From positions 1-44,292 of the forward strand of contig PATE01000047.1 in the NCBI GenBank assembly GCA_002712305.1: a stretch of DNA of 44,292 nucleotides. The letters run 5' to 3'. The DNA comes from Gemmatimonadota bacterium (lineage in GTDB: Bacteria > Latescibacterota > UBA2968 > UBA8231). The translations under genes and the position numbers were made by a program. Below, in pieces: positions 36,358 through 38,495 of this stretch (positions are counted from its first letter, which is position 1; every line of letters begins with the position of its first letter). The notes beneath the pieces were generated by a model that made no database searches, was not told the DNA's origin, and saw only the letters and a list, made by a program, of their open reading frames with translations.

Positions 36358-36552
36358 ATGCTACAAGTGGCGACAGAGCCAAGGCAGGTCCTCTCTGTAC
36401 ACCCGGGAAGGATCGTCGCTCAGTCGCCCGTGGCCTTCGCAGATGGCATGTTCCTCGTCCGCGTCTTCATCGACATGGACCATTCGCCTCCCACCATCGT
36501 GACAGCCTACCGCACCAGCAAGATGACCAAGTATTGGAGTGACACAGAATGA
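36358..36552 (+). CDS. DUF4258-like small protein (toxin-like partner)
   Basis: A 64-residue protein starting at ATG 36358, with GGAGGG (36345-36350) seven bases upstream. It reads MLQVATEPRQVLSVHPGRIV and ends with FIDMDHSPPTIVTAYRTSKMTKYW, the characteristic C-terminus of DUF4258 proteins. The usual N-terminal helices and His-containing first half are absent or very short, so it may be a minimal or truncated member. Its stop overlaps the next start (ATGA), a toxin-antitoxin-like arrangement. Toxic activity is not established. Confidence 0.72.
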   Translation: MLQVATEPRQVLSVHPGRIVAQSPVAFADGMFLVRVFIDMDHSPPTIVTAYRTSKMTKYWSDTE

Positions 36553-36752
36553 AAGTCACCTACGATCAGCAGACTGATACACTTAGCGTGATTCTTCGAA
36601 ATGACGTGGCTGTCGTCGATAGCGATGAAGAGAAACAGGGCGTCGTGCTGGACTACGGAGAAGACGGGCACCTTGTGTCGATCGAAGTACTCGAGGCGTC
36701 ATCGTGGGTCACTGACGCTACGCACGTCGATTTCGAGCGAACGGGTCAGTAG
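36549..36752 (+). CDS. DUF2283 small protein (antitoxin-like partner)
   Basis: A 67-residue DUF2283 protein. MKVTYDQQTDTLSVILRN and VDSDEEKQGVVLDYGEDGHLVSIEVLEAS are the conserved beta-rich halves of the family. DUF2283 genes often follow DUF4258 genes, and the two are proposed to form toxin-antitoxin pairs. ATGA overlap with the preceding gene supports coupling. It ends convergently with the flavin-reductase gene. Confidence 0.85.
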   Translation: MKVTYDQQTDTLSVILRNDVAVVDSDEEKQGVVLDYGEDGHLVSIEVLEASSWVTDATHVDFERTGQ

Positions 36753-37442: not shown

Positions 37443-37793
37443 CTAGTCGAGGATCTCTTCGACCTTCTCCGCCGGACGGGCGATGACGGCTCTGTCGCCG
37501 CGAATCACGATGGGGCGATTCATCACCTCCGGATGCTCCAGCAGCAGCGTGACGAGGGCATCGTTGTCGCCAATGTCCTCGATGTTGCGTCCGAGCTTCT
37601 CGAAAGAGCCGCTGTGCAGCATCTCTGCCGGCGCCAGGCCGAGCAGTTCGATGAAGCGGCGATAGTCTGCCTCGGAGGGTGGATTCTCGATATATTCGAT
37701 GACGTCGAACTCGACGTTGCGGTCGCGCAGAATCTCCTGCGCTCCCCTCGACTTGCTTCAATTGGGGTTGTGGTAGACGGTCACATCGGCCAC
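37443..37793 (-). CDS. arsC: ArsC-family reductase with selenocysteine (UGA) at the catalytic cysteine
   Basis: Reading from GTG 37793 (AGGAG seven bases upstream) to TAG at 37443-37445 gives 116 codons, the normal ArsC/Spx length, with a single in-frame UGA at 37758-37760. The start reads [22 protein letters not shown]: position 12, the catalytic Cys of ArsC (HNPxCSxSR), is the UGA. Downstream sequence is intact and family-like: [35 protein letters not shown] (Arg93) and [17 protein letters not shown] (Arg106), matching the ArsC arginines; the first expected Arg appears as His60. A stem-loop follows the UGA. Sec-containing arsenate reductase-like proteins have been reported from marine metagenomes. 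A TGC-to-TGA error is the main alternative. Confidence 0.85.
37722..37760 (-). promoter_or_regulatory. bacterial SECIS-like element with Sec UGA codon
   Basis: Immediately after the UGA the mRNA forms GCGCAG (37737-37742), loop GAGAUU (37731-37736), CUGCGC (37725-37730): a perfect six-pair stem. A lower GUC/GAC extension is separated by a one-sided bulge. The first loop base is G, 22 nt after the UGA, within the 16-37 nt window known for bacterial SECIS elements. SelB would bind this to insert selenocysteine. Confidence 0.7.
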
Positions 37794-37972
37794 GTGGAAG
37801 CTCCTTTCCTCTACGAGCGCGGCGAGACTTCTATGGTCGCTAAGAAACCAGGCTCTCGAGTGCTGTCAACGGCGTGAACCCCGTGAACCGCTGGCTCGAT
37901 GGCGGGCATCCATATTGTATTGTGCTCACCGAGCTTCTCAGGCAGTCCACCCACGAAACAGATGGTCCGTCG

Positions 37973-38495
37973 ATGCCCGAAGAACACAACGAGGACATCG
38001 CCGTGATGGCCCTCGATTACCCCTCGATGATTCATGGGCGAAGGACCTCTACGAAGGCTGTGGGTTCAGCGCACCCATGCCGAAGACCTCAGAAGAATGG
38101 GCCATGTTCTCCTCGCAGAATGCGGAGTTGCAGCAGGCGCTGGCCGATCTGAGTGCGACACAACAGCAACTGCTGCTGCAGGAGAAGATGGCTGGCCTGG
38201 GCAAACTCGTGGCGGGTATCGCGCACGAGATGAACACACTGGTGGGCGCGATCGAGTCTGCCCTGGATCTATCGAACGTCTCGCCAAGGCGATCGCCGGG
38301 CTGAGCACGTCCAATTCCACGGCTCAAGAGGCAGCTTCGCGAATCGCCACGGTGGTGAAGAGTCTGCGTGCTTTCGCCCGCCTTGATGAGGCGGAGTATC
38401 AGATGCTCGATTCCCTCTTCGATTTCGAATTCCGCCAGGAGGATGGGCGCGTGAAGTTGGGCATGGGGTTGCCGATGGACTACAGCGAGGTCTGA
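37973..38495 (+). pseudogene. decayed sensor histidine kinase
   Basis: Pieces of one histidine kinase gene lie in three frames. From ATG 37973 the first frame reads [18 protein letters not shown] second frame (about 38015-38275) reads [38 protein letters not shown] and [17 protein letters not shown], the last being the H-box. A third frame reads [21 protein letters not shown] and VVKSLRAFARLDEAEYQ, then jumps to FEFRQEDGRVKLGMGLPMDYS, an ATPase-domain end. About 100 residues of the ATP-binding domain are missing between them. Two frameshifts plus an internal deletion make it non-functional. Confidence 0.7.

Follow-up and report, generated by a model that had tools for sequence, protein, structure and literature searches.

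Probable selenocysteine and two conserved downstream hairpins in an arsC-family gene of Latescibacterota

The window analyzed here (the whole stretch of 44,292 nucleotides, contig PATE01000047.1 of a genome assigned to Latescibacterota) carries on its minus strand an arsC-family gene, 37443..37793, that is interrupted by an in-frame UGA at 37758..37760, which raises the question of whether this codon is read as selenocysteine (Sec) and, if so, what signal in the RNA directs its decoding. From a GTG start (37791-37793), which lies 7 nt downstream of a Shine-Dalgarno sequence (AAGGAG, 37801..37806, minus strand), to a TAG stop, the gene would encode 116 amino acids with the motif YHNPN-U-SKSR. 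The product exceeds the Pfam cut-off for ArsC (PF03960; 51.8 bits against 24) and falls just under that of the NCBIfam arsC equivalog (TIGR00014; 98.7-100 bits against 106.05). When HNPN-U-SKS is aligned to the R773 plasmid enzyme (PDB 1I9D/1JZW family), the UGA falls on C12 and the UxxS pattern is present. Compared with R773 ArsC, in which Cys12 is the catalytic residue, the window protein shares the HNPxC motif and equivalents of Arg94 and Arg107 but differs in having UGA/Sec for Cys12 and His for Arg60. Because the equivalog score is below its cut-off and the Arg60 position is His, arsenate can only be a presumptive substrate. The Arg60-to-His change, with Arg94 and Arg107 retained, is found in the Latescibacterota Sec copies, whose substrate may not be arsenate.

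Arsenate reductases with Sec in a UxxS motif are not new. Fourteen sequences were reported from the Sargasso Sea (PMC1088965) and 77 from the GOS data (PMC2398784), and the family, known since 2005, is listed in reviews (PMC9312934, PMC13188914); the window protein thus adds a member to a family already known. It resembles the Sec-ArsC proteins described in the relevant passages of these sources (COG1393/PF03960) in belonging to the ArsC family, in having Sec for the catalytic Cys, in its UxxS pattern, and in the SECIS-like hairpin that follows the UGA. It differs from them in having two conserved hairpins rather than one, in the His at the position of R60 of the R773 enzyme, and in its host, since the passages on known Sec-ArsC do not name the Latescibacterota class.

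The host genome has the complete Sec-decoding trait, with a tRNA-Sec bearing a UCA anticodon, SelB (350 bits), SelA (553 bits), and SelD (351 bits). Its selD gene (L157, 1416 onward) itself contains a UGA (CGUAAK), followed by a canonical hairpin, GTGAGTCC-GGTC-GGACTCGC, with the loop at nt 18. SelB is above the family cut-off in 43 of the 47 genomes of the class, with fragments in at least two of the remaining four. In 22 of these 47 genomes, this arsC has exactly one internal UGA, always at this codon (61-81% identity), and most of the others have a Cys copy at 35-45% identity. Copies with UGA were also found in G064, a genome labeled Myxococcota whose protein is 54% identical to that of the window, and in other genomes of its class and phylum. 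Because both UGA and Cys copies occur in G064 and members of its class (57-69% identity to the G064 protein), they provide a natural control. Once the Sec/Cys site is masked, a tree of the proteins places the Latescibacterota UGA copies in a single clade (support 100/98), and the UGA state has changed at least five times overall, with two changes forced by well-supported branches. A search for relatives in viral contigs found none. The window is a single contig of a draft genome, so that the UGA might be suspected of being a sequencing error, the stop of a pseudogene, or a normal terminator. We consider this extremely improbable and reject error and pseudogene on the recurrence of the UGA, as the same codon is UGA in 22 genomes of the class, single-contig assemblies included, and the downstream frame is intact and conserved.

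The initial annotation described a six-pair stem with a loop G at the distance from the UGA expected of a bacterial SECIS, and this is indeed what the minus-strand sequence contains. The interval given for it, 37722-37757, encloses the hairpin but corresponds to the whole stretch following the UGA; the hairpin itself (hairpin 1, GCGCAG-GAGATT-CTGCGC, minus strand) occupies 37725..37742 (nt 16-33 counted from the UGA), and its loop covers 37731-37736. The bSECISearch rules, as given in PMC13188914, call for a loop of 3-9 nt with a G in the first two positions, an upper stem of 4-16 bp, an energy of -7.5 kcal/mol or lower, and a spacing of 16-37 nt. Hairpin 1 agrees with them in every respect, as had been claimed: its loop is GAGAUU or, when RNAfold lengthens the stem to 7 bp, AGAU, and begins at nt 22 or 23, and its upper stem of 6-7 bp has an energy of -9.5 to -9.8 kcal/mol. 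Its pairing probability stays at 0.93-1.0 in contexts of up to ∼350 nt, so there is no competing fold over the site, which had been named as an observation that would speak against the hairpin. A search of Rfam gave no SECIS match, either at gathering thresholds or in a permissive search at the site.

Such agreement with the rules is nevertheless common. Of the 1330 TGA triplets that the window contains in total, 17% precede a rule-compliant hairpin of at least 6 bp and 2.3% precede one as stable as hairpin 1 (-9.5 kcal/mol or better), and 4% of synonymous codon shuffles of the window arsC gene yield an equally stable rule-compliant hairpin. Hairpin 1 on its own is therefore weak evidence for Sec, being equaled by 2-4% of controls, and the weight must rest on its conservation in UGA copies and on the lack of selected structure in Cys copies. 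The place of hairpin 1 is constant, with the loop beginning at nt 21-22 in nearly all UGA copies, but its pairing partner shifts by two nt from one genus to another, a combination that departs from the bSECISearch model as given in that source. The helix extends from pair 16-33 to pair 21-28 in the window genus and from pair 14-33 to pair 20-27 in genus g16 (GCGCAAT-GGACAT-ATTGCGC), which uses the rare Ile codon ATA. In either single register only ∼70% of the helix is paired, and we rejected a single helix in fixed columns because two registers are required. Some close Cys homologues retain 5-6 of the 8 pairs, so hairpin 1 is in part a product of protein sequence and GC-rich codons.

Past the end of the interval first annotated lies a second hairpin (hairpin 2, ACGUCG-AGUU-CGACGU, 37702..37717, minus strand, nt 41-56, loop 37708-37711), which is nearly invariant in UGA copies and is the most strictly conserved part of the element. 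The signal, which had been described as one hairpin, thus contains that hairpin as only a part. Hairpin 2 is paired in all 27 UGA copies but in only 2 of 92 Cys copies; a more distant Cys copy (L185) forms it too, so its restriction to UGA copies is not absolute. In the window gene it has a 6 bp stem and a G within the first two loop positions, as the rules prescribe, but its energy straddles their limit (-7.0 kcal/mol for the bare hairpin and -7.7 for nt 40-57, against -7.5) and its loop begins at nt 47, beyond the 16-37 nt of the bSECISearch model in the same source. In the open-access subset of the literature that was searched, we found no bacterial SECIS element described as having a second conserved hairpin.

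We then compared the folding of 27 UGA copies, close Cys copies, and other Cys copies with that of sequences in which synonymous codons had been shuffled at local usage. The mean z of UGA copies was -2.0 at nt 10-39 (14 of 27 at p≤0.05), -2.27 at nt 40-57, and -2.81 at nt 4-60, where 25 of 27 were at p≤0.05. The corresponding values in close Cys copies were about -0.2 to -0.3, -0.6, and -0.5, other Cys copies were at about 0, and so were control stretches within the same genes. In the window gene taken singly, the shuffle p was 0.037-0.075 for hairpin 1 alone and 0.11 for hairpin 2 alone. RNAalifold recovered two hairpins from the 27 UGA sequences and no hairpin from 15 Cys sequences. In the UGA alignment, 8 pairs had changed on both sides as compared to 1.4 in shuffles (0 of 500 reached 8), a comparison that is inflated by kinship among the sequences, and sliding the partners lowered pairing from 82% to 25-52%. 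Both hairpins are under RNA-level selection in UGA copies. Conservation of hairpin 1 in UGA homologues, which had been proposed as a check, was accordingly found to go beyond protein constraint at nt 10-39, although in two registers rather than one. The codons at -8 to -3 before the UGA are unusually uniform as well (ACC, TAC, CAC, and AAC in L017-L038).

With complete machinery, a recurrent UGA at the catalytic Cys, and an RNA structure that is under selection in UGA copies alone, we consider it very probable that SelB inserts Sec into an ArsC-family protein here, directed by a stretch of coding RNA ∼14-56 nt after the UGA that forms two hairpins. The initial annotation's preference for Sec insertion over a random mutation is thus upheld on these grounds, and not on stem and spacing, which at a 2-4% chance rate are not the strong independent evidence they had been taken for. 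SelB and Sec-tRNA(Sec) would decode the UGA at the catalytic position, with the two adjacent hairpins formed downstream guiding SelB. At the canonical SECIS distance, hairpin 1 would be the likeliest SelB contact, and hairpin 2, co-selected in UGA copies, may be either an accessory part or a SelB-binding tip that hairpin 1 brings within reach; Sec incorporation, SelB binding, and this division of labor are what the comparative evidence suggests. The two-hairpin signal is probably a new variant of the Sec insertion signal.

It could be argued that hairpin 1, which in the window gene follows every published bSECIS rule, is the sole SECIS and that hairpin 2 merely reflects protein constraint and codon bias, since the residues VEFDV are nearly invariant across the UGA clade. 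We find this explanation improbable. Codons +15 to +18 are GTC GAG TTC GAC in every one of the 26 UGA copies that have these residues but vary among Cys copies, and hairpin 2 remains invariant even in the AT-leaning genomes of genus g16, where the usage of each of these codons is only 29-45%. It folds beyond synonymous shuffles in 19 of 27 UGA copies as compared to 1 of 21 close Cys copies, and the UGA copy L142 retains the stem with other residues (GTCTCG-ACTA-CGAGAC). In addition, SelD of most of the same genomes has no such structure at nt 40-57. Hairpin 2 is also a perfect, nearly invariant DNA palindrome (ACGTCGA-GT-TCGACGT), as a DNA-binding site might be. We find this very unlikely, as the palindrome follows the UGA versus Cys state, and reject it on the compensated changes in L142 and in L145, where T-A replaces C-G, both of which alter the sequence yet preserve complementarity.

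A less easily dismissed alternative reverses the roles of the two hairpins, so that SelB binds hairpin 2 (AGUU, nt 47) and hairpin 1 is a spacer. Were hairpin 1 to fold away ∼20 nt, the loop of hairpin 2 would effectively lie ∼27 nt from the UGA, within 16-37 nt. The strict conservation of hairpin 2 and its compensated changes in L142 and L145 suit such an arrangement; the 46 nt spacing violates the published rule. L142 itself argues against it, as its hairpin 2 loop is ACUA and a canonical GGUC sits in hairpin 1, at nt 18, and so do the more distant UGA arsC copies, which have only a hairpin with a GGUC or GUC loop near nt 20-24.

SelD offers a comparison, as UGA is present in 40 of the 45 selD genes of the class. 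Outside genus g3, nearly all UGA-containing selD genes examined have a GGU(C) tip at nt 18 or 21, and nt 37-57 show no sign of selection. In the sister genus g3, however, 9 of 10 genomes have a perfect hairpin, CTGGCA-GGTC-TGCCAG, at nt 37-52; it is preceded by another hairpin and carries its GGUC tip at nt 43 (L200-L204, L206, L207, L209, and L212). The SelD test at nt 40-57 showed no second hairpin, but that stretch was misplaced for g3; by codon shuffle the distal hairpin of g3 has a z of -1.1, which is not significant and makes it a hint and not proof. On balance, a SelB contact at hairpin 2 is a real possibility that we nonetheless hold to be the less probable one. More tentative still is the generalization that arsC genes of Latescibacterota and some Myxococcota relatives combine a proximal spacer hairpin with a distal SelB-binding tip at 43-47 nt, that the same layout also arose in SelD of one genus, and that the 16-37 nt rule describes unpaired reach and not linear distance. 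In genus g5 (L198, L199, L205, and L220), the Sec position of SelD is occupied by Cys, although SelB is present in the same genomes.

Programs that predict genes or SECIS elements look for a single hairpin at most 37 nt from the UGA. A second hairpin that is more strictly conserved than the first suggests a larger signal in some bacteria; selenoprotein genes may therefore go unrecognized, and the spacing rule can be put to the test. Paired UGA and Cys versions of arsC from sister genomes amount to natural experiments in how a SECIS is gained and lost.

As to the surroundings of the gene, a flavin reductase-like gene (PF01613, 36813-37442, minus strand) starts directly after the arsC stop. This arrangement was not found at the other arsC loci of the class, and the pair is retained in a congeneric species (G042, 87.5% identity). 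On the other side, a sensor kinase-like remnant (37915-38495, plus strand) with a weak HisKA match is spread over two frames and is therefore probably a frameshifted or decayed gene. A small DUF2283 protein (PF10049) is encoded at 36549-36752 on the plus strand.
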